Positions 7,882 through 34,625 of a stretch of 46,766 bases of DNA are shown piece after piece (position 1 is the first letter of the stretch; each line of letters opens with the position of its first letter). Both the position numbers and the translations under genes were made by a program. Origin of the DNA: a virus. The notes beneath the pieces were generated by a model, which was given only the letters and a program-made list of their open reading frames with translations, was not told the origin of the DNA and searched no databases. The DNA lies in IMG/VR virus record IMGVR_UViG_3300025732_000073, positions 1 through 46,766 of that record; one strand, 5' to 3'.

Positions 7882-10800
7882 ATGGCAAACCGCTATTGGG
7901 TTGGGGGGTCGGGTAGCTGGACTGCCGTCTCTACAACAAGCTGGTCCGCCACGTCTGGCGGCGCTGGTGGCGCGTCTGCGCCGACTGCTGCCGATTCTGT
8001 ATTTTTCGATCAGGCAGGAACCTACACCGTCACCATGACGAATGGATTGACCTGTCTGGACCTTACTGTTTCTGCGGGCACAGTTACATTTAATTCGGGG
8101 ACAGGCCCTACGCTTGCCGTAAGCGGGTCCATGTCATTGATTGTTGGGACTGTGTGGAATAACACGGGCCCTATTACATTTAACGCCACAACCACCGGCA
8201 AAACAATTAACACCAATAACATAACTTTGGGCGGCCCAGTAGTGTTTGATGGGGTGGGTGGCGGTTGGACGCTAACTAGCGCACTTAGAACATCATCTGA
8301 CTCTATTACGCTGACAAATGGGTCGTTTAATACTGGAAACTTTAACGTAGGGGCCACGACCGGTTTTATTTCAAACAACTCCAATACGCGGTCGATTACG
8401 CTTGGCTCATCCACGATAAGTTGTTCCAACTGGAACCTCGCCACAACAACAGGTTTAACTTTTTCCGCAGGCACCTCCACAATCACCATAACCGCTATTC
8501 AAGGTGCTTTTTCTGGCGGTGGGCTTACTTATAACAACGTTCAGTTATACCCTTCTGGCGAGTATAGCGGAGCAGTTAGCGGGGCAAATACATTTGCCAA
8601 CTTGACCACTTACGGGTCTACCAATCAAAACTCTGGCATTAACAACGCCAGAATGACTTTTAGCGCAGATCAAGTTATTACTGGTACTCTTAATTTTGGA
8701 ACCTCCACCAACCTTACATACCGTAAAACAATTGGGTCTAACGTTTTTGGCACCCAACGCACTTTGACTGCCGCTGTTGTTACCGGGTCAAACTTTGATC
8801 TTCGAGACATTGTGATTGCGGGGGCTGCTGCCCCATTTAATGCATCGTCGTTGAATTGGGGCGATCTGGGGAACAACTCTGGCATTACGTTCCCAACACC
8901 AAAAACGGTGTATTGGAATTTAGCCGGAACGCAAAACTGGTCTGCGATTGGATGGGCCACTTCTTCAGGTGGAACGCCTGCCCTAGCCAACTTTCCGTTG
9001 CCACAAGACACAGCTATTTTTGATAACGCTGGAAGCGCCGGTACCGTAACTGTACCTGGGTATAACGTTTGCAGTTTGAACATGTCTGCGCGTACAAGCG
9101 CAATGACATTAACGTTCAGTCAAGTTTCCGCGTTTATTGGTGATCTTATTCTTGGTTCTGGGGTTACAATTTCCGGTGCCGCCTCATCATTAAACTACTT
9201 TGGTTATCGTGGAAGGACCGTATATGTAAACGGAAACGGGGTAACGTTTTCGTTCCCGCTAGTTATAAATAATGGTCCAACGCTGCAGCTTTCCGGTGCG
9301 TTTACTACTTCGGCGGCTGTAACCTATACAACCGGCGATATATCGCTTGTATCCTATACGTTTACTACTCCCAGTATTTCTTTTCCAGCCTCGTCAACAG
9401 TGGCGTTTGGCACTGGTAACTTTACGTTGACAGGATCAGGAAGCGTATTTTCATCAACCGCCTCCGCCACTGTTACTGGTACGCCCAATATTTATTTGAC
9501 GTATTCTGGAGCCACAGCTACCTCTATAAACTCTGGACTTTCAATAACTGAAGCAAATTCAATTAACTTTATTATTACGGCTGGGTCTTATAGTTTTTCT
9601 ATACCTAGTAATAATATTGTAAGAAATTTAGATTTTTCAAACGGTGGTACATCAACGTATACGGGAGACTGGGCGGGAACAACCAGCGCATTTACTTGCT
9701 ATGGAAACCTGACCCTTAAGTCAGGCATGACTGTTTCGGGTACGGGTCGCATTACTTTTGCAGCTACCAGCGGAACCAAAACAATTACCAGCGCAGGTTT
9801 GACCAATACACACCCAATAACCTTTAACGGTGTTGGGGGTACATGGCGGCTTCAAGATGCGCTTAATATCAGTTCCGCAACCGCAGGCGCAATTACACTG
9901 ACCAACGGAACATTTGACCTCAACGGTTTTACGGCTACTTTGTCAGCAGCTGCAACCGCTACGTTCGTTACGGGGGTTGGTACAAAGAACCTTACATTTA
10001 ACAGCGGCACGTTGACTATCGCTGCATCGGGTACCACAGCGTTTAACAACGCTCAACCTACCGGGTTTACCACAACAGCTGGTACTGGGACTGGGTCAAT
10101 TAGCCTTACCAGCGCGTCAGCAAAAACTTTTGTTGGTGGCGGCTCCACATTCAACTGCTCTCTTAATCAGGGCGGCGCAGGGGCGCTTACTGTTAGTGGT
10201 TCAAACACATTTTCAAACATTACCAACACCTATAGTGCCACAGGCGCAACCACAATAACATTAACGTTCAGCACTACGCAAACTGTATCGGCATTCACAG
10301 CATCTGGCGCAGCAGCAAAACTATTAACTATTAACAGCACCGCCGCAGGCTCTAGGGGCACGATTGCGTTTACTGGCGGCGGTACAGTATCTACTGACTA
10401 CCTTGACTCCAAAGACATTGCATTTACCCCTGCCGTTGCTGCTGACGGAACAACTCCGTATGTTTGGTATCTAGGAGCAAACTCCACCAACAGTGGCAAC
10501 AATACTGGCGGACTGTTCCAAGCCGGTGGTACGGGTGCGCTCAAGGTCTATCAGATAACCGACACAGCTACAACAACATGGACGGTTCCTAGCGACTGGA
10601 ACAACACCAACACGATCCATTTATTTGGCGGCGGTGGGGGTGGCGGGGGTTCTCGTGCTACTTCTTTAACCAACAAAGCTGGCGGCGCTGGTGGTGGTGG
10701 CGGAGGATACCGTGTTTTAACAAACTATTCTGCAAGCCCGAGCTCTTCAATTACTGTTGCAGTGGGCGCTGGAGGTACGGCGGGAACTACCGCTGGAGGC

Positions 10801-12411
10801 ACAGGCGGCACAGGTGGAACAACTTCTTGGGCTGGAACAACAGCCACAGGCGGCACTGGAGGTTCAACTACGGCAACTCCATCATCTGTTGGAGGTACGG
10901 GCGGTACAGGAACATTTTCTGGGGGCTCAGGTGGCGCTGGCTCAACAACTACAACCTCTGGTGTCATTGCTACTGGCGGGGGTGGCGGCGGCGCTGCTGG
11001 TCCTAACGGAGCAGGTGGCGCTGGCGGTATTGGTTTTGCTAACGCGACTGCGGCCAACACGGCTGGTGGTGGCGGTGGTGGTAACGGCGGTGGTTCTGCT
11101 GGTGGTAACGCATCTTCTGCTCTTGGCGGCACAGGCGGTAACAATTTTGGCGGCACAGGCGGCGGTGCTTCTAATGCCATTGGCACGTTTGGTGGCGGCG
11201 GCGGGGGTGGCGTTAACACCAATGGTAGCCGTGGCGGCGCGGGCATTGATATCCTTAACACCATTGGCGGCGGCGGTGGTTCAGGAGGTAGTGCGGGTTC
11301 TCAAAACACTGGTACATCCGCTGCCTTATCCTTATATGGAGCCGGAGGGTCTGGGGCGTCTACATCCACAGCAGCAACTACAAACAATGGTGGAGCAGGC
11401 GCTCAAGGCATAATCGTCATTGCCTATGTCCCAACCGGCGGTGGCACCTATACGGGCGATGTTGCCGAGACCTCTACGGCCACCGACTTATTCAATGCCG
11501 CCGCTCTGTTTGGCGGGGTAATTAGCGAGACCGCCACGGCTACGGATTCCCTGTCGTCGCAGGCTGACTTCTTCCCCATCATTCTGGAAACAGCCACCGG
11601 GACGGACGCCGTTTCCGGTGTCATGACCTTCTTCGGGGTTGTGGACGAGTCGGCTACTGGCACGGATCAGTACATCAGTGGACTGGCGTTTACCGCTGCA
11701 TTTGCCGACTCCCTCGCCGCCTCAGATACGTACTTGCCGGGACTGGCTTTTGCCGGGGTTATTTCCGAGACTTCCACAGCCACGGACTCCAACAGTGCGC
11801 TGCTGTATGCGGTAGCCTACGCGGCTGAGACAGCCACGGCAACCGACGCCATAACAACCCGGGCAGACTTCCTCACCTCTATTCAAGAGCAGGTCACAGG
11901 TACAGATGCCGTTACCGTGCAGGGCACGTTCCGGGTAGCCTTCTTGGACGCCGCTGTCGCCACAGACAACATATCCATGGCCTTGGTCATGCCGGTCAGT
12001 TTTGCCGACTCCGCCACGGCAACTGATGCAATTTTGGGCTTAAACAGCTTGTATACGGTAGTGTCCGAATCAGGTACGACTACTGACGCTACAAGCGCCC
12101 GCTTAGGCGCTGCGGCCTTCCTAAACGAAACCGCCGCAATAACGGAACTTATTTCCCCCGTATTTGCCTTTGGAGTTTCCGTAATTGATACCGCAACCGC
12201 AACGGAAACTAGCGTTCCTGCAGTAAGCTATAACGCGCAGTTATCGGAGTTGGCAACGGCCTCCGACCAGTTCCTTGGTGCATACCTTTGGAACCAAATT
12301 GATGACAGCCAGACGCCTGGATGGGTGCCGATTGCAAATACCCAGCCCCAAAGCTGGTCTGAAATTGATGACAACCAGGACCCCAACTGGCAAAATATAC
12401 CCACCATGTAA
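7882..12411 (+). CDS. Very long glycine-rich tail fibre/adhesin
   Basis: 1509 residues, the largest gene here. The N-terminal region opens with NRYWVGGSGSW and a similar VYWNLAGTQNW block recurs near residue 344, both followed by Thr/Ser/Gly-rich stretches that look like a beta-solenoid. Residues about 890-1183 are a Gly_rich_2-type domain (WTVPSDWN, then poly-Gly), possibly a polyglycine-II bundle. Residues about 1190-1470 hold about 14 degenerate copies of an ETATATD-type repeat, and the C-terminus has W-x-x-I-D-D-x-Q-x-P-x-W motifs. The fibre-like build and neighbours imply host attachment. The stretch around 9500-9660 is clearly more A+T-rich than flanking genes. Confidence 0.75.
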   Translation: MANRYWVGGSGSWTAVSTTSWSATSGGAGGASAPTAADSVFFDQAGTYTVTMTNGLTCLDLTVSAGTVTFNSGTGPTLAVSGSMSLIVGTVWNNTGPITFNATTTGKTINTNNITLGGPVVFDGVGGGWTLTSALRTSSDSITLTNGSFNTGNFNVGATTGFISNNSNTRSITLGSSTISCSNWNLATTTGLTFSAGTSTITITAIQGAFSGGGLTYNNVQLYPSGEYSGAVSGANTFANLTTYGSTNQNSGINNARMTFSADQVITGTLNFGTSTNLTYRKTIGSNVFGTQRTLTAAVVTGSNFDLRDIVIAGAAAPFNASSLNWGDLGNNSGITFPTPKTVYWNLAGTQNWSAIGWATSSGGTPALANFPLPQDTAIFDNAGSAGTVTVPGYNVCSLNMSARTSAMTLTFSQVSAFIGDLILGSGVTISGAASSLNYFGYRGRTVYVNGNGVTFSFPLVINNGPTLQLSGAFTTSAAVTYTTGDISLVSYTFTTPSISFPASSTVAFGTGNFTLTGSGSVFSSTASATVTGTPNIYLTYSGATATSINSGLSITEANSINFIITAGSYSFSIPSNNIVRNLDFSNGGTSTYTGDWAGTTSAFTCYGNLTLKSGMTVSGTGRITFAATSGTKTITSAGLTNTHPITFNGVGGTWRLQDALNISSATAGAITLTNGTFDLNGFTATLSAAATATFVTGVGTKNLTFNSGTLTIAASGTTAFNNAQPTGFTTTAGTGTGSISLTSASAKTFVGGGSTFNCSLNQGGAGALTVSGSNTFSNITNTYSATGATTITLTFSTTQTVSAFTASGAAAKLLTINSTAAGSRGTIAFTGGGTVSTDYLDSKDIAFTPAVAADGTTPYVWYLGANSTNSGNNTGGLFQAGGTGALKVYQITDTATTTWTVPSDWNNTNTIHLFGGGGGGGGSRATSLTNKAGGAGGGGGGYRVLTNYSASPSSSITVAVGAGGTAGTTAGGTGGTGGTTSWAGTTATGGTGGSTTATPSSVGGTGGTGTFSGGSGGAGSTTTTSGVIATGGGGGGAAGPNGAGGAGGIGFANATAANTAGGGGGGNGGGSAGGNASSALGGTGGNNFGGTGGGASNAIGTFGGGGGGGVNTNGSRGGAGIDILNTIGGGGGSGGSAGSQNTGTSAALSLYGAGGSGASTSTAATTNNGGAGAQGIIVIAYVPTGGGTYTGDVAETSTATDLFNAAALFGGVISETATATDSLSSQADFFPIILETATGTDAVSGVMTFFGVVDESATGTDQYISGLAFTAAFADSLAASDTYLPGLAFAGVISETSTATDSNSALLYAVAYAAETATATDAITTRADFLTSIQEQVTGTDAVTVQGTFRVAFLDAAVATDNISMALVMPVSFADSATATDAILGLNSLYTVVSESGTTTDATSARLGAAAFLNETAAITELISPVFAFGVSVIDTATATETSVPAVSYNAQLSELATASDQFLGAYLWNQIDDSQTPGWVPIANTQPQSWSEIDDNQDPNWQNIPTM
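11459..12285 (+). repeat. About 14 degenerate ETATATD-type protein repeats
   Basis: Within the long fibre, roughly every 19-23 codons a motif of the form (S/A)-E-T-A-T-A-T-D-x-x recurs (examples: AETSTATD, SETATATD, LETATGTD, ADSATATD, SELATASD), followed by a hydrophobic strand. Copies differ enough that they are seen in protein more clearly than in DNA. They likely form a repetitive beta structure or stalk. Confidence 0.75.
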
Positions 12412-13814: not shown

Positions 13815-16484
13815 ATGCCCTTACAGAAACTTTCTCTTCGACCCGGCATCAACCGGGAGGGCACTTCCCTAGCCAATGAGGGAGGGTATTTTGAGTCAGA
13901 CAAAATCCGATTCCGTTCTGGCTACCCCGAAAAAATTGGGGGATGGACGATGGATCAGGGCACGGCGGACACCACCACGTTTGTGGGCGAACTGGCTCCG
14001 CCAACGGGATCTTTCTGGGGCGTGTGCCGTTCACTGTGGAACTGGATCAACCTGCTTGGCTACAACCTCCTGGGGCTTGGAACAAACCTAAAGTTCTACA
14101 TTCAGAACGGCCCAGGGGGCTATTTTTATGATGTAACGCCCATCAGAAGTACAACGGCTCCTGGTGGAGTCACATTTGCAGCCAGCTCAGGGTCCCCCAT
14201 CTTGCTTGTCACCGATATATCGCATGGGGCGCAAAACGGGGATTTTGTTACTTTTAGCGGAGCTGTGTCCCTTGGCGGTGCGGTAACAGCGTTGGTTTTA
14301 AACGCAGAATATCAAATTACCTACGTCAGCGATTCCCAGTACACCGTCACGTTACCGGTTAATGCAACTGGAGGGGACGTTGGTAACGGGGGTGCAGCTA
14401 CCGTTGCTCAGTATCAAATCAACACGGGTGGGGGCACTTATACCGCTGGGGTAGGCTGGGGAGCGGGCGGCTGGGGCGGATCTTCGGGCCCTTCCGCAAC
14501 TTCAACATTGACAGGGGCCCCACTGAGCGCACTGCCACTTACCACTCTTTCTACTGCCTTGAGCGCGTCGGCAACCACTATTTCTGTGGCAACTACTGCT
14601 GCTTTTTCGTCAACCGGGTCGTTGTTGATTGATTCTGAGATCATTAATTACACTGGCAAAACGGCCACTACCTTCACGGGCTGCACTCGTGGCTATTTGA
14701 GCACGGCAACAACGCATGTGGCGGCTACGGGTGTAACTGTTTATACAGGGGGATTGGGGCTTGGAATCACTGTTGCTTCCACTGCCGGGTTTAATGTAAT
14801 GGGCGGGTATATAACAATTGGTCGAGAGGTCATCAGCTACGTCACAGTTGTAGGGAACACGTTTACAGATTGTCTTCGAGGGGTCAATGGGTTCTCAAAC
14901 GCAGCGACGATTGGCACCCCTGTTTATCAATACATGGGCTTGATATCAGGGTGGGGATCTCCTTCCACTACCGGCGTATCACAAGGCGTTCAACTGCGCA
15001 CGTGGAGCCAATCCAATTTTGGCGAAGACTTGATCATTAACCCACGTGGCGGGGCTGTCTACTACTGGGCCAACAGTCCCACAGCAGTATTCAATCGTGC
15101 TCAGTTGCTCGGTCCTTTGAGCACGGTCACTCTAAAGGGGGGCACGTTCACTGCTGATAGCTCTTGCCCTTCGGTTGCCAACTTCGTAACCGTGTCTGAC
15201 GCGTCGCGGTTTGTGATTGCATTTGGTACCAACGAGTTGCCTGCGGGAAAGGACTTGGTCGCACCCACGGCGCAAGACCCAATGTTGATCCGTTGGTCGG
15301 ACCAAGAAGATCCGTTTGTGTGGTGGCCGGAGGCTACCAATCAGGCAGGAAGTTACCGCCTGAGTCATGGTTCTACCATCGTGACGCAACAACAAACCCG
15401 CCAGGAAATTCTGGTGTGGACGGATACCTCGCTGTATTCCATGCAGTTTTTGGGGCCCCCTTATGTGTGGGGGTTTCAAATCATGGGCGACAACATCTCG
15501 TTGATTGGACCCAATGCGGTGGCTGTGGCCAACAACATAACATTTTGGATGGGGACAGATAAATTTTACATGTACACCGGTCGTGTGGACACGTTGCCCT
15601 CTACACTGCGCCAGTATGTGTATGACGACATCAACCTAAATCAGGGGTATCAGTGTTTTGCCACGACAAACGAGGCATACAACGAGGTGTGGTTCTTCTA
15701 TTGTTCTGCAAACTCCTCGGAAATTGACAAGTACGTGGTCTACAACCATCTGGAAAACGTGTGGTACTACGGGACAATGACTCGCACAGCGTGGTTGGAC
15801 ACGCCACTTCGGGATACGCCGATTGCAACACTGGCTTCAACTCCCACGTTTATTGGAAGCATTTCCAGCACAACTCTGACCGTTACGCAGGTGACGGCAG
15901 GAGCCATAGTATCGGGTATGACGTTGGTGGGAGATGAAATCCCCGCAAATACAACTATTACTGCATTTGGAACCGGCACTGGGGGCACGGGCACATATAC
16001 GATCAGCACGCCGCTCACTATTGCTTCTCAAACGATGACTGGAATTACTCCCCAGCCGTGCGGTATTTTGGTCAATCAAGAAAGTGGTAATGATGACGGG
16101 ACCACAAACCCTGCGTCACCGATCTACGCGTATGTCCAATCCTCTGATTTTGATATCGGTGACGGGCACAATTTTGGATTTGTGTGGCGCATACTTCCTG
16201 ATTTAACTTTTGACGGATCTACGATCAACAATCCAACGGTCAATATGACAATCCGTCCCCGTAAATTTCCTGGCTCGCCATACGGCACCGAGGAAAACCC
16301 GTCCATAGTCAGCGCCCAAAACTACCAAAACCAACGTACCTACACTGTTCAAGAATTCACTGAGGAAGTATTTGTGCGTCTGCGTGGACGCCAGATGGCT
16401 TTTAAGTTGGAATCGACCGAACTGGGGGTGTCTTGGCAGCTTGGGGTACCGCGCATCGATTTGCGACCGGACGGGCGTAGATAA
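13815..16484 (+). CDS. Tail nozzle/DNA-stabilisation-like protein (P22 gp10-like)
   Basis: 889 residues. The start LQKLSLRPGINREGTSLANE, then YFESDKIRFRSGYPEKIGG, is characteristic of podovirus stabilisation proteins of P22 gp10 type that seal the tail. Residues about 120-210 (VTDISHGAQNGDFVTFSG, then LNAEYQITYVSDSQYTV) resemble an FCCH-like beta domain seen in many phage proteins. The beta-propeller-like core includes EILVWTDTSLYSMQFLG and FYMYTGRVDTLP. Residues about 676-745 are a Gly/Thr-rich insert related to the one in the gene at 5826. The C-terminus has VQEFTEEVFVRLRGRQMAFK. The exact structural role is inferred. Confidence 0.7.
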   Translation: MPLQKLSLRPGINREGTSLANEGGYFESDKIRFRSGYPEKIGGWTMDQGTADTTTFVGELAPPTGSFWGVCRSLWNWINLLGYNLLGLGTNLKFYIQNGPGGYFYDVTPIRSTTAPGGVTFAASSGSPILLVTDISHGAQNGDFVTFSGAVSLGGAVTALVLNAEYQITYVSDSQYTVTLPVNATGGDVGNGGAATVAQYQINTGGGTYTAGVGWGAGGWGGSSGPSATSTLTGAPLSALPLTTLSTALSASATTISVATTAAFSSTGSLLIDSEIINYTGKTATTFTGCTRGYLSTATTHVAATGVTVYTGGLGLGITVASTAGFNVMGGYITIGREVISYVTVVGNTFTDCLRGVNGFSNAATIGTPVYQYMGLISGWGSPSTTGVSQGVQLRTWSQSNFGEDLIINPRGGAVYYWANSPTAVFNRAQLLGPLSTVTLKGGTFTADSSCPSVANFVTVSDASRFVIAFGTNELPAGKDLVAPTAQDPMLIRWSDQEDPFVWWPEATNQAGSYRLSHGSTIVTQQQTRQEILVWTDTSLYSMQFLGPPYVWGFQIMGDNISLIGPNAVAVANNITFWMGTDKFYMYTGRVDTLPSTLRQYVYDDINLNQGYQCFATTNEAYNEVWFFYCSANSSEIDKYVVYNHLENVWYYGTMTRTAWLDTPLRDTPIATLASTPTFIGSISSTTLTVTQVTAGAIVSGMTLVGDEIPANTTITAFGTGTGGTGTYTISTPLTIASQTMTGITPQPCGILVNQESGNDDGTTNPASPIYAYVQSSDFDIGDGHNFGFVWRILPDLTFDGSTINNPTVNMTIRPRKFPGSPYGTEENPSIVSAQNYQNQRTYTVQEFTEEVFVRLRGRQMAFKLESTELGVSWQLGVPRIDLRPDGRR

Positions 16485-22189: not shown

Positions 22190-25129
22190 ATGAAAGAAGA
22201 CATCCTCAAACGCGCCATGTTTGCGATGCCCTTGTCCAAGGATGCTCGCAACTCCGGCATCCTCTCCGGCTTTGACATGGAGGAGATGGACGAGATGCCT
22301 GAGCCTTCCGAAGAGATGCCGCAGATGTCCCGCACGCCTCAGAATCCTGAGATTCTGATGAATACGCTGCGCGGCGACATGCGTTCTGTGGATGCGCGTT
22401 ACCAGGAACTGGCTCAGATGGTGGGCGAAGAAGCCGCCATGGAAACGCCTCCTGAAGTCCTTGCGATGCTGCAGCCGCAACTCGGTGCCCAGCAGGGCGG
22501 TATTGGCGGGTTGCCCGGTGCTCAGGGCATGATGCCTCCTGGAGCGCCCCCTCAAGCAGGCCAACAGCCTCCTGCTCCTCCTCCCGGGCCGCAGGGCATA
22601 GCAGCGGCCATGCCTCCGGGCATGGCGAGTGCGCCCCCTTTCCCCCAGGGCGGGGCTGAGCAGGCTCCGCCCCAACAACTCGCCGGTGGCGGAGAAGTAA
22701 CCGGTGAGGGCGGCATAACTCTGCGCGTTCCTATCAGTGTCGGTGCAGGTGGCATGGGCGGTATGGGCGGGGGCCAACTTGGTCAGCAGGCAACTACTGC
22801 GCTTCAACAGGGATATGGTGCCTCCCAGGGGGCTCCAAATCAACTAGAGGGTTTTAACCAGGAATACATGCAGAATGTAATGCGCTCTCAATTGGGCGGC
22901 GGAGACATGTCTGCCGCCATGACCCCTGAGCAGCAGGATGCGGCTCAAAAAGCTGCGCAGACAGGCGCAGCATTCGCGGCGTTCAAGCAAAGCCAAGCAG
23001 CGCAAGCGGGCAGTGGAAGCCAACAAGTTCCTGGCGCAACTGCTCCCGCATCAGAAGGCGGTCCCAAGATTGCTCCTCCGGTACTTAATCCGATCATGTC
23101 TCAGGGCATGTCTTTGCAAAGACAGCAAGACTACGTTAATCTGTACGGAAACGCATTTAAGGGCAATTCAATGTTCGCTGACGGCGGGATGGTGAATCAT
23201 CCTCCGACGCCTGATGGCATGCCCCCGCTGCATGCTTTTGGTGGAGCATTTGTGAATCCGATGATGCGTTTTGCTCAGATGGGAGCCGACAAGCTGAGCA
23301 CCTTGGGCATGGAAGCAAATGCCTTGGGTGGGCGTTTGATGTCGCAGGGCTTCCCACAGACCTTCCGCCCAATCTTTGAAAACGTGCGGGGCGAAGGCGG
23401 TCGTTATACGGCAGAGCAAATCCTGAAGTACCCGACGTTGACCCAGCACTTGTCTAATCTTGCGGGTCCTCAAGCAACTACCATGGCAGGCCGCGCCAGC
23501 ACTCTAGCTGCCCCCGCTGCTACAACCGCCGCAGGTATGCTCGGTGCAAGCGGCGTGTACAAGGGCATGGCAGGGGACCAGACTGATCCTGTTCGCCAGG
23601 AGTTGATGCAGAAGTTTGAGCAGGAGTACTACCGTACCCGCGACAGAAGCATTCCCATGCAGAACCTGGATCGTCTCAGTAACGATCAACTGGCTCAGGC
23701 GATTGCGAACATGTCTGGCATGTCCGATCAGTCCCAATCTGGGACCCCGGCCCCCGCAACACCTGCTCCTCCCAAAGTGGCGGCTCCTGCTGTCCCTTCC
23801 TCTGAAGCGGCTCCGAGTGCCGATCCCCTAGGGGACTTCATTCAGCAGAAACTGGCTGCTCAACAAGAGCGTGATGCAGCGACCAAAGTCACGCCAAACG
23901 TGGCCAAGCCTACGCTGGAGCCTGCCCTTTCCAAGAGTGAACGAGTCAAAGCAGCACGCAACGAGTATGCTGATCTGTACCGGGAGCTTTTAGGCGACAC
24001 CAAAGACGAGATGCAGACCAACGCACTTCTGATGTTGGCTGATGCTGGGTTTAAGTACGCAGGCGCTCCGGTGACCCCGGGCAGCACGCCGATGACCCGT
24101 TTGGCGCAGTCTCTTGGCGGCATACCGCAGGGCTTCATGGCCCTTTTGTCTCAGGCCAAGGAACGTCAGTTGAAGGTCGATACTGCTGCGTTGTCGCAAG
24201 CCGTCAGCGATGTGCAAGAGCAGGATAAACAAGTTCAGCAAATCAAGCTGGAAATGCTTAAGGGCGACTATCGCTTGCTTGCCGAGCAGATCAAACAAGG
24301 CGGCGGACAACTCAAGGACGGTGGGGCAGGCCTCATCGTTGCCGAGACCAAAGGCGGTGGGTATAAGGGCATGTCGGTTGACCCAAACAACCCAACGGTG
24401 CAATCCGCTCTGGCCAGTCGTTACACGTTGCGCCCGACAGACAACCCGTTTGTCGAGAACCGTGGTGAAGCTCCGACCACCGTTGAAACGGACAAGGAGG
24501 AGCGCGTCAAGCTCACCTCCACGCTGCGCTCGCTGGACAACAGCCTGTCTACGCTGGACAACCTCAAGGGCGTGTACTCACAAGCCTATGGCCCCGGCGC
24601 GTGGTTCTCGGACAAGGTCAACAACCTGTTAGTCCCTGTGCTGCCCACCGCTGTTGTCCGCCCTGATGTGAATCTGGTGGATGCCAGCACCCGTATCAGT
24701 AGCGGCATGAACTCCATCCTGAAGAACATGGCTTCGGCCAATGATGGTGGCCGTGTGGCAGTGCAAGAGCAGGAGTGGGCGCGGGACACCGCCAAGGGCA
24801 TCGCTGACCCCACCAAGTTCTTTGCTGACAAGGAACTTGCAGCCAAGCAGTTCAACAGCATGGAAACCATGCTGCGCAACGCCCGTCAACAGGTGATTAC
24901 GCAGTTGGGCTACGAGAAGAACGACTACGCCATGCGCACGCCTAACACCGGAACGCAGACTGATCCGTTCCAGATTCCGCAGGACCCGGATCAGGCAAAG
25001 CGCATGTACAACTTCCTTGGTAGTACGATTGGCAAACTGCAAGACCCACGGGCCACGGTCTACATCCGTATGCCCAACGGATCGGTGCAGGGCTTCAACC
25101 CGATGCAACTCAGAGGATTGGTCCAGTAA
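22190..25129 (+). CDS. Internal virion/ejection protein candidate 3
   Basis: 979 residues with a strong TAAGGAAAAG site. The N-terminal third is Met/Pro/Gly/Gln-rich and disordered, and contains acidic DMEEMDEMPEPSEEMPQM. Residues about 420-440 include a small apolar stretch (STLAAPAATTAAGMLGASG). The C-terminal half is helical (VSDVQEQDKQVQQIKLEMLK) with a well-ordered domain ending in VYIRMPNGSVQGFNPMQLRG. No known enzyme motif is visible. It ends in a TAATG overlap with the next gene, implying coupled translation. Confidence 0.6.
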   Translation: MKEDILKRAMFAMPLSKDARNSGILSGFDMEEMDEMPEPSEEMPQMSRTPQNPEILMNTLRGDMRSVDARYQELAQMVGEEAAMETPPEVLAMLQPQLGAQQGGIGGLPGAQGMMPPGAPPQAGQQPPAPPPGPQGIAAAMPPGMASAPPFPQGGAEQAPPQQLAGGGEVTGEGGITLRVPISVGAGGMGGMGGGQLGQQATTALQQGYGASQGAPNQLEGFNQEYMQNVMRSQLGGGDMSAAMTPEQQDAAQKAAQTGAAFAAFKQSQAAQAGSGSQQVPGATAPASEGGPKIAPPVLNPIMSQGMSLQRQQDYVNLYGNAFKGNSMFADGGMVNHPPTPDGMPPLHAFGGAFVNPMMRFAQMGADKLSTLGMEANALGGRLMSQGFPQTFRPIFENVRGEGGRYTAEQILKYPTLTQHLSNLAGPQATTMAGRASTLAAPAATTAAGMLGASGVYKGMAGDQTDPVRQELMQKFEQEYYRTRDRSIPMQNLDRLSNDQLAQAIANMSGMSDQSQSGTPAPATPAPPKVAAPAVPSSEAAPSADPLGDFIQQKLAAQQERDAATKVTPNVAKPTLEPALSKSERVKAARNEYADLYRELLGDTKDEMQTNALLMLADAGFKYAGAPVTPGSTPMTRLAQSLGGIPQGFMALLSQAKERQLKVDTAALSQAVSDVQEQDKQVQQIKLEMLKGDYRLLAEQIKQGGGQLKDGGAGLIVAETKGGGYKGMSVDPNNPTVQSALASRYTLRPTDNPFVENRGEAPTTVETDKEERVKLTSTLRSLDNSLSTLDNLKGVYSQAYGPGAWFSDKVNNLLVPVLPTAVVRPDVNLVDASTRISSGMNSILKNMASANDGGRVAVQEQEWARDTAKGIADPTKFFADKELAAKQFNSMETMLRNARQQVITQLGYEKNDYAMRTPNTGTQTDPFQIPQDPDQAKRMYNFLGSTIGKLQDPRATVYIRMPNGSVQGFNPMQLRGLVQ

Positions 25130-28100
25130 TGCCTACGATCATGAACACCCAGGGCCAGATGGTCGATATGACCACTGGCGAGATTGTTGGGCGTGCCGAG
25201 GGTGCTCCCACTGCCGTTGAACCCCGCAAGGCTGGTGCTCCTGAACAGATCACCGAAGGCGCGGACAAGGTCAGAGGCTTGGTCAACAACCTGTCCTGGG
25301 GATTCAACTCTGCGCTTTTCTCGCTGCCTGATGCTGCGCAGCGCGTGATTGGTCGGGGCCTGGGCCTTGATGACAATCAGGTGTTCCAGTTTGCCAAATT
25401 CTTCAACCGTGGCGAAGTGGCCCCCAAGAACTCTGGGGAGCGCTATTCCCGTGCAATTGGTGAAGGCGTGGGCAACGCACTGCCCGTTACCGGTGTGTTG
25501 AGCTATATGGCCGCAACACGGCCCATGGTCACTGCTGCACAGCCTGCGGCAGGTATTTTGCGCGGTATCGCTGACGACACCATCAAATTCATCCAGAAGA
25601 GCCCTGCTCAAGCAGCAGCGATGGACGTGGCGTTTGGTGCTGGCTGGGAAGGCCTGCGTCAGGCTATCGAAGAAAACGTAGACGACGCCAACCCTAGCAA
25701 GGCGCTGTACAAAGAACTGCTGCCCACCGCCGCTTTCATTGGTGTGCCGTTGGCGCTGTCTGGCACCATGGGCGCGGGCAAGAAACTGCTCAATCTGTCG
25801 CCCACCGCGAAGGCCGCTGCGTGGACCAAAGAACAAGTGACCGGGCCGAATGCAAACCTGAGCGATATTGAAAAAGAAGTACTGGGTGCCGCTCCTTCTG
25901 GCTGGAGATTGCCTCTGGTCAACATCGTCCCCAAGATGCTGATCAAGAATGCTGAGCGCAAGCTGACGCAGGTATTCGGCCCCATCGCCGAGAGCAAGGA
26001 AGCGCAAGAGGCGTTGATGGCTTTGGAAAAGGCCATGGCTGATCCGCGTTTCTCTGAGGCGGGCTTCGTGTTCGATGCGGCTGAGAAGACGATGTATGCG
26101 CCGCTGGTGCAGGAAAAGCTGAAGCTGCTGGAACAACTGGGTCCCAAGGAACTGGAAAGCGTTAAACAACGCATCAACCAGAACCAGGAAGCCCTGAACA
26201 ATCTGTTTGTCGGGCTGGCACCTCAGGCACGTCAAGAGGCCATGACCGCGTTTCAAGCAGCACAGGCAGACCGCTTGGCCTTCTTTGAAGGCCTGCTGCG
26301 CCAGAAGAAGGACATGACCGACGCTGAGGTTTTGGCAGTGGCCGAGCGCCTCGGGCCGCAGAACCTGGACATGCTCAACAATGAGTTGCGCGGCGTGATC
26401 CAAGCTCGCATGGAAGCGGATAACAGCATGCGGCAGAACGTCCTGTCCCGCATGGGACTCAAACAAGCTACCGCTCCTGACGGAACTCCGCTGCCTACCC
26501 GGGAAGATGGGAAATCGTTGTTCCAGTCGCAGGACATGGAACAGGCCGTGCTTGAGCTAATCAAGAAGTACAAGGTCGAGCGCCCATCCCTGCGCACGCC
26601 GATGCCTGAGCCAATTCGTCTCCTAGACAACTTTGTTCAGGGACAGTTGCGTCAGCGTGAGCGTCTGGAAGGGCAGGCTTTGACCAGTCTTGTTGATGAT
26701 GCGTTAGCGCAGCAGATTGGAGCAATGGGCCGGGAGTTGGATCCCGAGGTCATGACCGCGTTGCGCGATTCTGTGATGACGCTGGTCAAGGGTGAAAAAC
26801 CTCGTGGCGGCAAGCGTACACCGGGGCTCGCGGAACTGGCTCCAAAGCCCGATGCCCAGGGCAACATTTCTGTCCCCTCCATCATCCCTGGTCGCAAGAT
26901 CGTAATCAACCCCGCACAGTTACGTGAGGATGCTGCTCGCATCGCTTCTGACAGCACTCGGATTGATCTGAACACGCCTGAGGCTTTGGACTACCTGACT
27001 GCAGCCCAGCGCTTCCGCAATGACTCGCTGAACAAGTACAACGCCGCGATGCTCGGAAACAACCGGGTGCGCCAGACGGATGCGCAGCGCATCATGGATA
27101 CCGGTGATGCAGTGTTCCGGGATGTTGAGAAATTGGTCCTGGGCCACGCGCCACGGCTCAAGGGCGAGTACGAGGCGATGAAGACCCTCATCGACGACTA
27201 CAAGAGCGTCTATGACAGCACGTTGCCCCTGCTGATGACCCAGGTCAAGCGCGGTGGGCGTGAGTACTTGCTACCTAACGAAGACCTGCTGCGCAACGCA
27301 TTCAAGAACGTCGAAAGCCTGCGGAGCGTAGCCGCCATCCTTGGCCCTGATCAGCAGTCTGCGGACCTGTTGATGAAGGGCACGATTGATTGGCTGCGTT
27401 CCAAGAATGTCGTCAACAAGGACGGCATCGTGGATCCCAAGATGCTGCGCTCGGTGCTGGACAAGAACCGCAACATTGTTGACGCCCTGCCAGACAACAT
27501 CAAAGCCAAGCTCAACGACGAAGTAGCCCTGGCTGATGACTACGTCAAGCGCCTGGGCGAGCTGGACCGCCGTACCACGGCTGCTCAGGACAACGAACTG
27601 GACCGGGTACTGGCCAAGGCCGTGCGCCCCGAGGCTGACCCGCGTCTCGTGCTCCAGGATGCATTGAAGGATCCGGCCATCATGCGCAAGCTGGTGGACG
27701 CCATGAGCCCGAACCCCGAGATGGTGGATGCGCTGCGCCGTTCGGTGTACGACATCGCTACCCAGGGTGCCCAGGGCGGCGGCGGCTTGAAGTCGTTCCT
27801 GGACAACAACGAGCGGGCGTTGAAGGTGCTGTTTGGCGGGACCGAGCATCTGGACAACCTGAAGACCCTGGCTGATCTCCAGCGTCGGGTGAATGCATTT
27901 GCCAATGTGACCGGCCAGATTCCGGCGTTTGAGTCGATGGATGAGGCCTTGCGCCGCACGTTTGGCACCGGTATTCAATTCCTGACGACCACGGCCCGCG
28001 AAGCAATGGTGGGTCGCATCTCCCCCGAGACGGGTGCCCTGGCCCTGTTAGTGCGCATGACAGGCAGCTTGGAGAACCAGCTGTACAAGCGCATCTTTAC

Positions 28101-28539
28101 CCGGGCACTGGAAAGCGAAGAGTTTGCCAAGCAGATCACCCACATCAGCACGCCAAAGGACGCCGCCAAGGTCACCAAGGCGCTGGAAAGCATCGGCATT
28201 CCGAAGTCCGTGATCACCAACGCTACGATGGCCCCGGTCCGTGGTGCGGCGCAAGAGGCAGGCGATCTCATGCAGGAGGGGAAGAAATCCCCGGTTGCTG
28301 GCATGGCAGGACTGCCTGTTTCACGTGGAACAAGCGCCAGCCAGATGCTGCGTCAGTTGCCCCCGGCACCGCCCACCCGTGGCACGGACTTCAACCCCCG
28401 CATGCCGACCACGCCGCAAGTGCAGCAGGGCGGTGGCGCAAATCAGATACCTTTGATGTATCCGGCCATGTTCCCGAACGACCCCATCAGTGCGTTGCTG
28501 CAACAACGGCAACTCATGGCCCAAAAGCCACAGCAGTAA
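25129..28539 (+). CDS. Internal virion/ejection protein candidate 4 (very large)
   Basis: 1136 residues starting in a TAATG overlap. Apart from a hydrophobic stretch near residues 115-150 (VTGVLSYMAATRPMVTAAQ), it is largely helical and charged (ALMALEKAMADPRFSEAGF, VKQRINQNQEALNNLFVGLA). It resembles the giant inner-core proteins of podoviruses that cross the envelope with the DNA. No transglycosylase or protease motif is recognisable. The C-terminal 70 residues are Pro/Gln-rich and disordered. It is co-transcribed with candidates 1-3. Confidence 0.6.
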   Translation: MPTIMNTQGQMVDMTTGEIVGRAEGAPTAVEPRKAGAPEQITEGADKVRGLVNNLSWGFNSALFSLPDAAQRVIGRGLGLDDNQVFQFAKFFNRGEVAPKNSGERYSRAIGEGVGNALPVTGVLSYMAATRPMVTAAQPAAGILRGIADDTIKFIQKSPAQAAAMDVAFGAGWEGLRQAIEENVDDANPSKALYKELLPTAAFIGVPLALSGTMGAGKKLLNLSPTAKAAAWTKEQVTGPNANLSDIEKEVLGAAPSGWRLPLVNIVPKMLIKNAERKLTQVFGPIAESKEAQEALMALEKAMADPRFSEAGFVFDAAEKTMYAPLVQEKLKLLEQLGPKELESVKQRINQNQEALNNLFVGLAPQARQEAMTAFQAAQADRLAFFEGLLRQKKDMTDAEVLAVAERLGPQNLDMLNNELRGVIQARMEADNSMRQNVLSRMGLKQATAPDGTPLPTREDGKSLFQSQDMEQAVLELIKKYKVERPSLRTPMPEPIRLLDNFVQGQLRQRERLEGQALTSLVDDALAQQIGAMGRELDPEVMTALRDSVMTLVKGEKPRGGKRTPGLAELAPKPDAQGNISVPSIIPGRKIVINPAQLREDAARIASDSTRIDLNTPEALDYLTAAQRFRNDSLNKYNAAMLGNNRVRQTDAQRIMDTGDAVFRDVEKLVLGHAPRLKGEYEAMKTLIDDYKSVYDSTLPLLMTQVKRGGREYLLPNEDLLRNAFKNVESLRSVAAILGPDQQSADLLMKGTIDWLRSKNVVNKDGIVDPKMLRSVLDKNRNIVDALPDNIKAKLNDEVALADDYVKRLGELDRRTTAAQDNELDRVLAKAVRPEADPRLVLQDALKDPAIMRKLVDAMSPNPEMVDALRRSVYDIATQGAQGGGGLKSFLDNNERALKVLFGGTEHLDNLKTLADLQRRVNAFANVTGQIPAFESMDEALRRTFGTGIQFLTTTAREAMVGRISPETGALALLVRMTGSLENQLYKRIFTRALESEEFAKQITHISTPKDAAKVTKALESIGIPKSVITNATMAPVRGAAQEAGDLMQEGKKSPVAGMAGLPVSRGTSASQMLRQLPPAPPTRGTDFNPRMPTTPQVQQGGGANQIPLMYPAMFPNDPISALLQQRQLMAQKPQQ

Positions 28540-28553
28540 GAACGGAGTAAGCA

Positions 28554-28925
28554 ATGGAAATGATTGGACGCATGATTGGCACGATGTTCCTGGCGCGGGA
28601 GTATGCGCACCGGGCGCATCTGCGCGTCACCGGTCCTGGGAGCTTTGCCAAGCACTCCGCACTGGGCGAGTTCTACACGGGAATCATTGACAACGCCGAC
28701 AGCATCACCGAAGCCTATCAGGGCCGCAACGGGATTATTGAGATTCCGTACCTGCCGATGATTGACGAAGAGGACCCCGTCAAGGCCCTGGAAAAGCTGC
28801 TGGATGACATTGAAAAAATTCGCTACGACGCGGTAGACAAGAAAGACACCGCCATCCAGAACCTAATTGACACGGCTGTGGAGACGTTCCTAAGCGCTCT
28901 GTACAAACTCCGTCACTTGAGATAA
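28554..28925 (+). CDS. Dps-like mini-ferritin candidate (DUF5856-like)
   Basis: 123 residues, preceded by ACGGAGTAAGC. It folds on paper as four helices (about 1-24, 30-57, 76-95, 97-122). The segment AHRAHLRVTGPGSFAKHSAL, then GEFYTGIIDNADSITEAYQG, resembles the DUF5856/Dps-like family. His22, His34, Asp49 and Glu53 are spaced exactly as the Dps ferroxidase residues (12, 15 and 4 residues apart, as in E. coli His51/His63/Asp78/Glu82). Dps proteins oxidise ferrous iron and protect DNA. The protein is shorter than usual Dps (about 160). The equivalent of Asp67 is Gly38, so the site may be incomplete. Role in this phage is inferred. Confidence 0.6.
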   Translation: MEMIGRMIGTMFLAREYAHRAHLRVTGPGSFAKHSALGEFYTGIIDNADSITEAYQGRNGIIEIPYLPMIDEEDPVKALEKLLDDIEKIRYDAVDKKDTAIQNLIDTAVETFLSALYKLRHLR

Positions 28926-28929
28926 CCAT

Positions 28930-29484
28930 GTGGATCCTGTTACCGCCTTTACTATGGTTAGTGGCGCTATCTCTGGCGTCAGGAAACTTTGTGCCTTGGT
29001 TAAGGAAGCCCAGGCCGCAGGAAAGGAAGTAGCAGACCTGACGAGCCAAGTCACCCACCATGTCGGCAAGGTACTTGAGCATACGCAGGAGTTGAAGAAG
29101 GCTGAGCTGGAGGTTAAGAAGAACCCGCCCAAGGGCAAGTCCCTGCAGGTTCTAGCGTTTGAAGAGGTGGCGAGGAAGATCGAATTGCGCCAACAATATG
29201 AACAACTGCGCAACATGATCGTCTATGAGTTGGGCCTACCGGGTGGATTCTGGGCAGACTTTGAGGCAACAGTGCATCGGTTGGAACAGGAACATGAACG
29301 GGAGATGGAACTAGCCGAACAGATGCAGAGGGAACTGGAATGGCAACGCAGGGTCAGAATCGATCAAATGCAAGAGGTGGCCCTGGAGGTGGTAATCGTT
29401 CTGGTTATGCTGGCGTATCTAGTCGCCCTGGTGTGGTCAGTGATGCTGTACCAGAAGAATCGATTGGGTGTCTGGTTGGTCTAA
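28930..29484 (+). CDS. Coiled-coil protein with C-terminal membrane anchor
   Basis: 184 residues using a GTG start (MDPVTAFTMVSGAISGVRK). After a small apolar N-terminal helix comes a long charged helical region (HTQELKKAELEVKKNPPKG, then TVHRLEQEHEREMELAEQM), and residues about 148-174 form one membrane segment (ALEVVIVLVMLAYLVALVWS). An ATG start 2 bases earlier in another frame would give an unrelated protein and is less likely. The topology and location before the holin and lysin suggest an envelope or lysis accessory protein. I do not assign it as a spanin. Confidence 0.6.
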   Translation: MDPVTAFTMVSGAISGVRKLCALVKEAQAAGKEVADLTSQVTHHVGKVLEHTQELKKAELEVKKNPPKGKSLQVLAFEEVARKIELRQQYEQLRNMIVYELGLPGGFWADFEATVHRLEQEHEREMELAEQMQRELEWQRRVRIDQMQEVALEVVIVLVMLAYLVALVWSVMLYQKNRLGVWLV

Positions 29485-30710: not shown

Positions 30711-31417
30711 CTTGAGCCAGGGTCCACAAGACCTTGGCTCTTTTTTTGGTGCTGCTCTACGCGCCGCCACCACATGTCCTTGTACTGATCGAACTCCCGG
30801 CCAGCGGTGACAAACTCCTGGGGCGTACCATCCTGGCACATCATCATGATGACGCCGTTGTCGATCTTCGTGCCATGCTGTTTGTCATGCGCTTCCGAGT
30901 ACGCGGCAAGCTGCATGAAGTAGTCCTCAATCCACTCCCGCTTCTTCGGCTTGTTGGTCTGCTTGAAGTCGATGATGCAGGGCTTTCCCTTGTAGACCCC
31001 AACGCAGTCAGACGTGCCAGCGTAAGCGCCAGGGACGTACAGCGACACCTCGGTGCCCCAGACCTCATCCACATGCGGAAAGAAGTGCTCGATGAGCTGA
31101 TGCCCCATGCGGTAGCCCTTGACATGCAGCCATGTGCGGGGGACCTCTAGCGGTCGATTCAGGAGTAATCGTTCGATGACATTGTGCATGTGCGTGCCGA
31201 CTGTTGCAGCATCATTCCTGATCTTGTCTGCCTGCTCCTTGCCTACCCGATCCTCCCAGGCCTTCAACGATGATTTGTCCTTGGTGCTGTCCAGAATGGT
31301 GGTCACACTCGGCATCGGTATGTCTACGTTCACGGACTGATAAACGCGGCCCGAGGCCCTGTCGATGCGGTGAAGGCGTTCGTAAACGTAGCGGCGGTGA
31401 AAGGGTACGAGTTGCAT
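30677..31417 (-). CDS. PD-(D/E)XK nuclease (RecB/Cas4-like exonuclease)
   Basis: 246 residues using the ATG in a TAATG overlap with the upstream helicase stop (an ATG 12 bases earlier is possible and would add four residues). Nuclease signatures in the 246-residue numbering: GTHMHNVIE (residues 74-82), Glu123 (TEVSLY), Asp137 (GTSDCVGV), Asp150 and Lys152 (IIDFKQ), and the QLAAY motif at residues 169-173. These form the metal-binding core of RecB-type nucleases. Podovirus exonucleases of this class act in host DNA degradation and recombination. It is co-expressed with the SNF2-type helicase, so the two may act together. Its 3' end contains the late-operon terminator of the other strand. Confidence 0.8.
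   Translation of the reverse strand: MQLVPFHRRYVYERLHRIDRASGRVYQSVNVDIPMPSVTTILDSTKDKSSLKAWEDRVGKEQADKIRNDAATVGTHMHNVIERLLLNRPLEVPRTWLHVKGYRMGHQLIEHFFPHVDEVWGTEVSLYVPGAYAGTSDCVGVYKGKPCIIDFKQTNKPKKREWIEDYFMQLAAYSEAHDKQHGTKIDNGVIMMMCQDGTPQEFVTAGREFDQYKDMWWRRVEQHQKKSQGLVDPGSSAIIQETVDKT
30714..30747 (+). terminator. Strong rho-independent terminator of the late operon
   Basis: An 11-bp stem (30714-30724 with 30730-30740, one G-U) with a 5-nt loop is followed by seven T (30741-30747). It serves the rightward transcript ending with the lysis genes. It lies inside the 3' coding end of the opposing nuclease gene. In the leftward direction there is no T-run, so it should not stop that gene's transcript. 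Confidence 0.85.
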
Positions 31418-32868
31418 TATTTGATCCACTCCTTGAGGTCTTCGCCAAGCACCTGCGAGGCGATGTTGATCTTGTTGCGAAGCGCCTTGACGATGTGCTC
31501 GTCCACGGTGCCCGGGCTGATGAAGTCGATATAGGTCACCTTGTTGGTTTGCCCGATGCGGTGGGCCCGGTCCTCACTCTGCAGCCGCACTTCCAGGTCG
31601 AAGTTGTTGCTGTAGTAGATCACGGTGTGCGCAGCTGTCAAGGTCAGACCATAGCCACCAGTGCGGGGATTGCCAACGAAGAACCGCAGGTCGCTCTCCG
31701 GGTCCTGGAACCGGTTGACGATCTCCTGTCGCTCCTCAGCTTCGGTGTCGCCGTAGTAGGTGGCCACCGTGGTCATGCCGTGAGCCTCGGCCAGCGCCTT
31801 CTTGATGTTCTCAATGTCGCGGCGGTAGTTGGCCCAGATGATGATCTTGCCGGTGCATTCCTCGACGGTGGACAGCAGCTCCTTGACTCGGTTGCTAGGG
31901 ATGTCCTCCTGCCTACCGTCGTCGTACTTCACGTGGCCGCAGACGATCTGATGCAGACGCATGATCTGGGTCAGGGCGTTGTTGGTGGACATGAGGTTGC
32001 CGTCGATCAAGGTCAGGGCCATGAGCTTCATCTGGTCATACGCCTTGCGCTGCTCATCGGTGAGCTCGATCTCTCGGCGGGTGAACACCTTGTCAGGCAG
32101 GTCCAGGCATTCCTCCTTGGTCACGCGGAAGCTAAAACCGTTGAGCTTCTTTTGCAACTCATCCAGGTGGCGATAGCCAACGATCTGCTTGAAGGTGTGG
32201 GTTGGCAGCTTGCGTTCGACGAGGATCGCGTACCGCGCCTGGAAGGCGAAATAACTGAAGTAGTTGAGACACGTAGGCGACAGGAACTCGCACTGGCTGT
32301 AGAGGTCCAGGGGTGACTTGGTCACTGGTGAGCCTGTGGCGATGCGACGATACCGCGCTTCCTTGCCCACCTTGATCACGCTCTTCGTGCGCTTGGCATT
32401 CGGAGTTTTGATGGTGGTGCTCTCATCGATGGCCATGTAGGCATCGGTGACCCGCAGGAAGGTCTTGGCAAAGTTGACGCCCTTCTCCGTGCTGAATGCC
32501 TCGATGTTCATCACCAAGATGCGCAGCGTGTCCACTGCGTTAAGCATGCGATCCATCTCTTCGCGCTCCGCCTTACGTGGCGTGGGTGACCAGCACGCCA
32601 TCGTGTAGGTGATGTGTGCAGGCATGTGCTCAGGGATTTGCCCTGTATACCAGTTGCGATACACGCCCTTCGGTGCGATCACCAGCATCGCGTTGATCTT
32701 GCCCTTGTCGTAGAGCATCGCAGCGTTGTTGATCAGCATGAATGATTTGCCCGTGCCCATGTCCGCAAACAGAGCTACACTCTCGTCCTCCCAAAAGCGC
32801 TGCAAGTACGCTGCTTGATGCAGGTACGGCTGGTTCTTGAATGGGTACTGCTCCAAAAAATATTGCAT
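31417..32868 (-). CDS. SNF2-type superfamily 2 helicase/ATPase
   Basis: 483 residues. Walker A DMGTGKSF (residues 36-43), Walker B AIDEST (146-151), motif III ATGSPV (177-182), and the C-terminal RecA-like domain with GGYGLTLTAAHTVIYYSNNF and the motif VI SEDRAHRIGQ, hallmark of SNF2-like ATPases. The RIGQ-type motif VI argues for double-stranded DNA translocation. The start ATG follows AAGGAAGAAAG. It is the first gene of the leftward two-gene operon. A similar ATPase with a RecB-like nuclease occurs in many podoviruses; exact role (replication or recombination) is unproven. Confidence 0.85.
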   Translation of the reverse strand: MQYFLEQYPFKNQPYLHQAAYLQRFWEDESVALFADMGTGKSFMLINNAAMLYDKGKINAMLVIAPKGVYRNWYTGQIPEHMPAHITYTMACWSPTPRKAEREEMDRMLNAVDTLRILVMNIEAFSTEKGVNFAKTFLRVTDAYMAIDESTTIKTPNAKRTKSVIKVGKEARYRRIATGSPVTKSPLDLYSQCEFLSPTCLNYFSYFAFQARYAILVERKLPTHTFKQIVGYRHLDELQKKLNGFSFRVTKEECLDLPDKVFTRREIELTDEQRKAYDQMKLMALTLIDGNLMSTNNALTQIMRLHQIVCGHVKYDDGRQEDIPSNRVKELLSTVEECTGKIIIWANYRRDIENIKKALAEAHGMTTVATYYGDTEAEERQEIVNRFQDPESDLRFFVGNPRTGGYGLTLTAAHTVIYYSNNFDLEVRLQSEDRAHRIGQTNKVTYIDFISPGTVDEHIVKALRNKINIASQVLGEDLKEWIK

Positions 32869-33285: not shown

Positions 33286-33835
33286 ATTCACCGATATGTT
33301 TGAGCAAGACGCTGGTGCCTTGCAAGTCAAAGACGAGGACCTGTCCTCTGTTGGCGCATTGGCCAAGCGTGCGAAAGAGCTTGAGAAAGAAATCATCGAC
33401 ATCGAGGCTATCCTTGATGAGCGCAAGAAGCAGCAGCGCAAGTTGCTCGAGGAGACCATCCCTGCCATGTTGCAGGAGCTGGGCTTGAAGGAGTTCAAAA
33501 TGACTGACGGCAGTCAGATCACTGTGAAACCCTTCTACGGTGCCAGCATCCCCGAGGAAAAGCGTGCTGAGGCCTTCGAGTGGCTCCGCGAGCGTGGCTT
33601 TGATGACATCATCAAGAACACTGTGTCTGTGCGCTTTGGCCGTGGAGAAGACGGCCTGTGCGAGACACTACTGAATCAACTGCGTGAGCAAAACTACCCT
33701 GTTGAGCAAGCGCAGAAGATCGAACCCCAGACCCTCAAGGCCTGGGTTCGCGAGCAAGTGGAGCGAGGCAACGAGCTACCCACTGAGCTTTTTGGAGTTC
33801 ACGTTGGCCAAAAAGCTACCATCAAATCAGCATGA
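33278..33835 (+). CDS. Coiled-coil early protein, unknown
   Basis: 185 residues from the ATG at 33278 (GGAG site 8-10 bases upstream); in-frame ATGs at 33266 and 33251 are less well placed. Residues about 25-60 form a charged coiled coil (KRAKELEKEIIDIEAILDER), followed by a globular domain with MTDGSQITVKPFYGASI and a helical C-terminus. No named family is certain. Its place next to the SSB-like gene suggests a replication or recombination accessory. Confidence 0.6.
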   Translation: MTKFTDMFEQDAGALQVKDEDLSSVGALAKRAKELEKEIIDIEAILDERKKQQRKLLEETIPAMLQELGLKEFKMTDGSQITVKPFYGASIPEEKRAEAFEWLRERGFDDIIKNTVSVRFGRGEDGLCETLLNQLREQNYPVEQAQKIEPQTLKAWVREQVERGNELPTELFGVHVGQKATIKSA

Positions 33836-33851
33836 AAAAAGGAAATTGAAA

Positions 33852-34625
33852 ATGAGCAAGAATCAAGTTGCGGTCGCCGAGACCAAGGAATATGCACTGG
33901 CTTTGGCCAGCGATTTCGAGCAAGACGCCAACAGTGGCTTTGACGGCATGGGCCAGGAAGACTTTGCGCTTCCGTTCCTGAAGCTGCTCACCAGCACCAG
34001 CCCTGAAGTGGGTGAGGTGGACGGCGCGATGCCTGGGTTCATCATGAACAGTGTGACCGGACAGCTGTACAACGGCAAAGACGGCATCACGGTGATCCCT
34101 GTGGCCTATGTGCGTCAGTACATCGAATGGGCACCTCGCGGCTCTGGCAGCGGCGCACCCATCGCCATCTATCCGGCAACGTCCGACATCCTCTCGCGCA
34201 CGCACCGTGAGCCGGGGGAAAGCAAAGACTTCCTGGAAAACGGCAACTACGTTGAGAACACGGCCAACCACTATGTGATGGTCATCAACGAGAGCGGCAT
34301 CCCTGAGCCTGCCCTGATCGTCATGAAGTCTACGCAACTGAAGAAGTCGCGCAAGTGGAACAGCATGATGATGAGCACCAAGCTCATGGGCAAGAACGGT
34401 CCGTTCACCCCTCCGATGTACAGCCATGTGTATCGCCTGACCACGCAAGCCGAGTCCAACGACAAGGGCAAGTGGTACGGATGGGAGATTGAAAAGGTGG
34501 GTCCCATCGAGGACATGAATCAGTATCACGCTGCCAAGGCATTCGCTGATCAGATCAAGGCCGGTGAGGTCAAGGTCAAGCACGAATCCGAAGGGGCCGT
34601 GGACAACGGACCTGCACCGTTCTGA
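33852..34625 (+). CDS. Putative ssDNA-binding protein-like replication accessory
   Basis: 257 residues from ATG 33852, which has an AAGGAAATTG site. The N-terminal region (FALPFLKLLTSTSPEVG), an OB-like beta-rich core with YIEWAPRGSGSGAPIAIYP, and LKKSRKWNSMMMS belong to a family common in phages, usually near primases. The C-terminus ends in a Pro-Phe (NGPAPF) tail that loosely recalls the SSB interaction tip. The SSB assignment is inference from position and these features, not from a recognised motif. Confidence 0.45.
   Translation: MSKNQVAVAETKEYALALASDFEQDANSGFDGMGQEDFALPFLKLLTSTSPEVGEVDGAMPGFIMNSVTGQLYNGKDGITVIPVAYVRQYIEWAPRGSGSGAPIAIYPATSDILSRTHREPGESKDFLENGNYVENTANHYVMVINESGIPEPALIVMKSTQLKKSRKWNSMMMSTKLMGKNGPFTPPMYSHVYRLTTQAESNDKGKWYGWEIEKVGPIEDMNQYHAAKAFADQIKAGEVKVKHESEGAVDNGPAPF

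Follow-up and report, generated by a model that had tools for sequence, protein, structure and literature searches.

The Dps-like gene and its neighbourhood

The DNA analysed here, referred to as the window, covers positions 1–46,766 of the virus record IMGVR_UViG_3300025732_000073. On its plus strand, an ORF at positions 28554–28925 begins with ATG, ends with TAA and translates to a protein of 123 residues (P0001), the same length and sequence that the first-pass annotation gave. A GGAG at 28544–28547 (plus strand), read directly from the sequence six bases 5' of the ATG, is Shine-Dalgarno-like and is the likely ribosome-binding site. The ORF and its translation, together with Pfam, PHROG, AlphaFold2 and Foldseek results, identify it as a Dps-like gene of the DUF5856/PHROG 858 family. 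The encoded protein is acidic, with 15 Lys and Arg residues versus 20 Asp and Glu residues.

The gene starts 14 bp past the end of a late gene on the same strand (25129–28539) that encodes 1136 amino acids and is conserved in the clade. No Pfam or PHROG match was found for the 1136-aa protein, nor any tblastn match in GenBank phages. Downstream, a gap of 4 bp separates the Dps-like gene from a GTG-start ORF (28930–29484), which is followed by holin-like and M15-peptidase-like genes. A further large late ORF of 979 aa (22190–25129) also lacks a Pfam or PHROG match, and dozens of IMG/VR loci conserve both it and the 1136-aa ORF.

Elsewhere in the window, a 1509-aa ORF (7882–12411) has no PHROG match, and positions 33684–34625 encode a Pam3 phage gp34-like protein (PF23977, E 5e-65). 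An SNF2-type helicase is encoded on the minus strand at 31417–32868; two plus-strand ORFs, 30734–31150 and 31270–32316, matched no family, and most of the second is antisense to the helicase. An 889-aa protein (13815–16484) has relatives among the ‘stabilization’ proteins that podophages (for example DSL-LC04) and phages of Roseobacter, Pelagibacter and cyanobacteria encode; judged from its sequence, this protein suggests a podophage-type virion for the window phage.

Genomic context was compared across loci carrying the gene. In the clade of the window, all 41 loci have a gene of ~1130 aa immediately upstream, with a gap of 9–14 bp; these loci include several near-duplicates and therefore do not represent 41 independent events. 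The upstream protein has diverged to 47–60% identity in some of them, and the downstream content varies. The gene had been described as having genes for injected virion proteins on one side and lysis genes on the other, which is true in the window, but only the upstream virion gene proved to be a conserved neighbor. Only 3 of the 41 loci have homologues of the holin and peptidase downstream, and the lysis-gene context was dropped as a meaningful one.

In a separate podophage clade, a homologue of the portal gene annotated in DSL-LC05 or ctNMl277 is directly upstream in 78 of 80 loci, within 60 bp in 67 loci and within ~90 bp of the alignment end in 11. The two genes in this clade often overlap by 4 or 14 bp. 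Comparison of the portal with the 1136-aa protein revealed no similarity. Thus, in two lineages independently, the gene lies after a large gene for a head or virion protein, and for this reason late expression is considered very likely. In podophage ctNMl277 the late cluster that holds the Dps-like gene also encodes a putative 2OG-Fe(II) oxygenase (locus L045, 14527–15138).

The family gene adjoins rI in T4-like phages and lies between DNA ligase and thymidylate synthase in a crAss-like phage. Because these locations differ, the role of the protein does not appear to be tied to one structure. Among contigs in metagenome-assembled bins, the gene was found in only three (L140, L141 and L142, from bins of Burkholderiales, Betaproteobacteria and Verrucomicrobiota). 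Virion genes of the window clade are upstream in L142 and a portal homologue is upstream in L140; at least these two look like phage contigs, and there is no clear host gene among the three.

P0001 belongs to DUF5856 and is related to Dps

Profile searches against Dps and DUF5856, which the first-pass annotation had proposed as a check, placed P0001 in Pfam DUF5856 (PF19174; E 4.2e-14, 53.8 bits against a curated cut-off of 34.6) and in PHROG 858 (E 3.3e-20, residues 4–122). The Pfam Ferritin profile (PF00210) scored 13.3 bits on P0001, below its cut-off of 24.5. When P0001 was searched against the PDB as a single sequence, matches to Dps were insignificant (E 0.15 or worse). The family profile did match Dps chains among PDB sequences, with NapA at E 1.1e-4 and MrgA at E 2.4e-5.

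Relatives were gathered from GenBank phages by plain tblastn and from IMG/VR by peptide patterns, and collection searches used a tighter alignment and single members as queries. DUF5856 relatives are present in hundreds of sequenced phages, T4-like phages included. A crAss-like member used as the query found no relatives. P0001 adds a new member to a known phage family; what is new is the evidence on the nature of DUF5856.

The Dps metal ligands are the only invariant residues

His22, His34, Asp49 and Glu53 of P0001 are spaced 12, 15 and 4 residues apart, which is the spacing of His51, His63, Asp78 and Glu82 in E. coli Dps, exactly as first claimed. An hhalign comparison of the family with E. 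coli Dps put all four ligand residues in register (E 1.7e-4, probability 49%, with one template sequence only). The corresponding plus-strand codons are 28617–28619 (His22), 28653–28655 (His34), 28698–28700 (Asp49) and 28710–28712 (Glu53). The pattern H-x11-H-x14-D-x3-E occurs once in the 48,043 residues of the window's six-frame stop-free stretches, and it appeared in 89 of 200,000 shuffles of P0001.

Conservation was assessed in 32 representatives sharing less than 70% identity. The same four residues are the sole fully invariant columns, and L119 is the next most conserved at 97%. If four of the 123 positions were drawn at random, the probability of hitting precisely this set would be 1.1e-7. 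Since the residues had originally been picked from Dps and not from conservation, their invariance is an independent confirmation. Some of the IMG/VR retrieval patterns include His34, which may bias that column toward conservation; in a 21-sequence set led by GenBank tblastn matches, the invariant positions are the same four plus Y117 and L119. His19, one turn before His22, is conserved at 91% among the 32 representatives and may take part in the site.

Gly38 (codon 28665–28667, plus strand) does occupy the slot of Dps Asp67, as the first-pass annotation stated. The substitution is real, but the worry about activity that was drawn from it was overstated: the slot holds Gly in 21 of the 32 representatives, with Asp in four, Glu in two, Arg in two and Asn, Gln and Ala in one each. 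Because the slot varies across the family, the absence of Asp is a family trait and does not mark the copy in the window as dead. Placed on a tree whose internal support is poor, the slot has undergone at least four changes. Glu39 was considered as a replacement for Asp67 and is present in 17 of the 32 representatives, but a whole group has Lys at that position and compensation is therefore not general. Asp67 is one ligand of five and lies outside the site described as conserved in all Dps (PMC8389677).

The predicted fold is of the Dps type

A single-chain AlphaFold2 model of P0001 was built with 40 family sequences. The model is a confident four-helix bundle (mean pLDDT 96.4, pTM 0.89) with helices at residues 3–24, 30–59, 75–93 and 99–121. 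The protein had been called four-helical on paper, and any predicted fold but a ferritin-like bundle had been named beforehand as an outcome that would refute its identity; the model has four helices in a ferritin-like arrangement. The top 50 Foldseek matches in the PDB were almost all Dps, with E. coli Dps (6b0d) at a TM-score of 0.79 over the query and 2.9 Å. Foldseek E-values to single PDB chains were weak (0.015 at best), a consequence of the low scores that short helical bundles obtain. A T4-type relative, the rI.-1 protein of an ECD7-like phage, gave a similar model (pLDDT 94.8), and Dps again predominated among its Foldseek matches, although the first on the list was a spurious one with a TM-score of 0.31.

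In Dps, the B–C loop contains a short helix. The corresponding loop in the model of P0001 (residues 60–74) is helix-free and is followed by a short helix C, which makes the subunit smaller than that of Dps. These two features may lead to dodecamer interfaces that differ from those of Dps. Dps binds DNA via a basic N- or C-terminal tail, whereas the model has no tail beyond the bundle, with helix 1 starting at residue 3 and helix 4 ending at residue 121. Given the missing tail and the acidic chain, tail-mediated DNA binding by P0001 is unlikely. Many Dps proteins do not bind DNA, so a missing tail is not decisive.

A Dps-type fold and membership in DUF5856 can be assigned to P0001 with near certainty. 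Its identity as a Dps-like mini-ferritin, first proposed from residue spacing, now has the support of its family, its fold and the invariance of its ligands. P0001 is classed as a DUF5856 protein that is related to Dps and shares its type of fold, but not as a canonical Dps, since the Pfam Ferritin score is below its cut-off, Asp67 is replaced and the B–C helix is absent. These departures weaken the statement that P0001 is a Dps, not the statement that it works like one.

A probable metal site between subunits and its possible function

In Listeria Dps, the site conserved in all Dps consists of His31 and the Asp58 and Glu62 of a neighboring subunit (PMC8389677). These residues map to His22, Asp49 and Glu53 of P0001, and His34 is the second histidine. 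His34 and Asp49 are 15 residues (~22 Å) apart on one continuous helix, so that one chain cannot close the site. With this helix geometry, the joint invariance of His34 and Asp49 is sensible only if two subunits meet as they do in Dps. Helix geometry in the predicted model thus makes it very probable that the metal site forms between subunits.

Two subunits would pack antiparallel, with His22 (and His34) of one and Asp49 and Glu53 of the other forming the metal site. This intersubunit site would bind Fe(II) and probably oxidize it; ferroxidase activity is predicted with moderate confidence. The oxidation product would be taken up by a homo-oligomer, most likely the Dps dodecamer, an assembly that is only slightly favored. 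Made late, alongside the virion proteins, P0001 could lower free iron and so reduce Fenton damage during phage DNA replication and packaging. Taken as a whole, we consider it likely that P0001 is a minimal, oligomeric Dps-type mini-ferritin that is made late, binds iron and probably oxidizes it.

The protein may also travel with the particle. Sajous1 gp217, a Kuttervirus protein confirmed here as a PHROG 858 member, was detected with 10 spectra in CsCl-purified virions and was called a ferritin by Phyre2 (PMC10892097). Sajous1 is a myophage whose gene neighborhood differs from that of the window, although the protein is of the same family as P0001, and detection in virions of such distant relatives, from which all of the virion evidence comes, can be contamination. 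The fENko-Kae01 remark ‘identified with LC-MS/MS’ was rejected as virion evidence, since according to its authors ultrafiltration at 300 kDa is unable to demonstrate presence in the virion. Packaging of P0001 in the virion is plausible but less likely than not. A ‘ferrojan horse’ mode of entry was unsupported in Sajous1, which infected TonB and FeoB mutants of its host normally (PMC10892097).

Alternative explanations

The Dps fold could instead have been kept as a virion or assembly part, in which a structural metal (zinc or iron) ties subunits together in a head or portal accessory that does not oxidize iron. The tight linkage to a large virion gene or portal, the relative in purified Kuttervirus virions and the variable Asp67 slot would each agree with such a part. 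The gene is far from virion genes in T4-like phages, where it is beside rI, and in the crAss-like phage, which speaks against a single structural role, and this explanation is considered unlikely.

P0001 could also be a lysis-timing protein like T4 rI.-1, tuning holin and antiholin, with metal binding secondary. T4 rI.-1 belongs to the same family, and the part of PMC6832632 that covers Golec et al. 2010 reports that its over-expression slightly delays the collapse of lysis inhibition. In the window the downstream genes include a holin and an M15 peptidase, and an endolysin gene is next in Caulobacter phage GB2A. However, the rarity of the downstream holin and peptidase homologues in the clade argues against a lysis-timing role, and RaK2 has an rI.-1 homologue with no recognizable rI, t, rI.1 or rIII (PMC3622015). 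The invariant residues, moreover, are metal ligands and not an interaction surface. A primary role in lysis timing is thus quite improbable.

A DNA-binding transcription regulator is indicated by a database label only, the PHROG 858 description ‘starvation-inducible transcriptional regulator’. This label was inherited from Dps annotation and the acidic P0001 has no basic tail outside its helices, which leaves this possibility very slim. Chance resemblance of an unrelated four-helix protein, for which only the insignificant single-sequence Dps match speaks, is contradicted by the significant profile matches to Dps, the invariance of exactly the four ligands and the Dps-specific Foldseek list, and its probability is negligible.

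Significance and relation to known systems

The preferred reading of P0001 as a late-made, metal-binding mini-ferritin bears on a family that is listed as being of unknown function. Among the open-access papers searched, none names DUF5856 or describes a ferroxidase test for any DUF5856 or PHROG 858 member. The finding that no residues but the Dps metal ligands are invariant provides a direct, testable function for T4 rI.-1, and it does the same for an unannotated gene that ends virion operons. If these proteins are active, an iron-sequestering protein is part of the gene set of many lytic phages. A broader proposal, which is speculative and probably too far-reaching, is that DUF5856 is a distinct, reduced lineage of viral mini-ferritins (~115–130 aa) with a pared-down intersubunit metal site. 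Its members would be produced together with the virion, and possibly carried in it, next to the portal or to a protein that is ejected, and the phage would thereby supply an iron-handling cage of its own. On this proposal T4 rI.-1, too, would be a mini-ferritin, one with an input into lysis inhibition.

Phage-borne Dps proteins of Gratiaviridae and Lactobacillus phages have been proposed to handle iron, oxygen or peroxide stress (PMC8008677; PMC6669764). With E. coli Dps as the query, matches were obtained in Streptomyces, Lactobacillus, Campylobacter and other phages, a set largely different from the phages matched by P0001. The bacterial proteins (E. coli Dps, B. subtilis MrgA, H. pylori NapA and L. 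innocua Dps) share with P0001 the four-helix fold and ferroxidase ligands in register. They differ from it in length, at roughly 145–170 residues compared to 123, and identity in the Foldseek alignments is 11–19%. P0001 is further set apart from them by its helix-free B–C loop, short helix C, Gly at the Asp67 slot and lack of an N-terminal DNA-binding tail.

The closest comparison is with the other members of DUF5856 and PHROG 858, T4 rI.-1 among them, which share with P0001 the profile family, the length range and the invariant His, His, Asp and Glu. T4-like members carry ~10–14 additional residues at the N terminus, usually have Asp or Glu in the Asp67 slot and are encoded beside rI; P0001, in contrast, has Gly at this slot and is encoded behind a virion gene.
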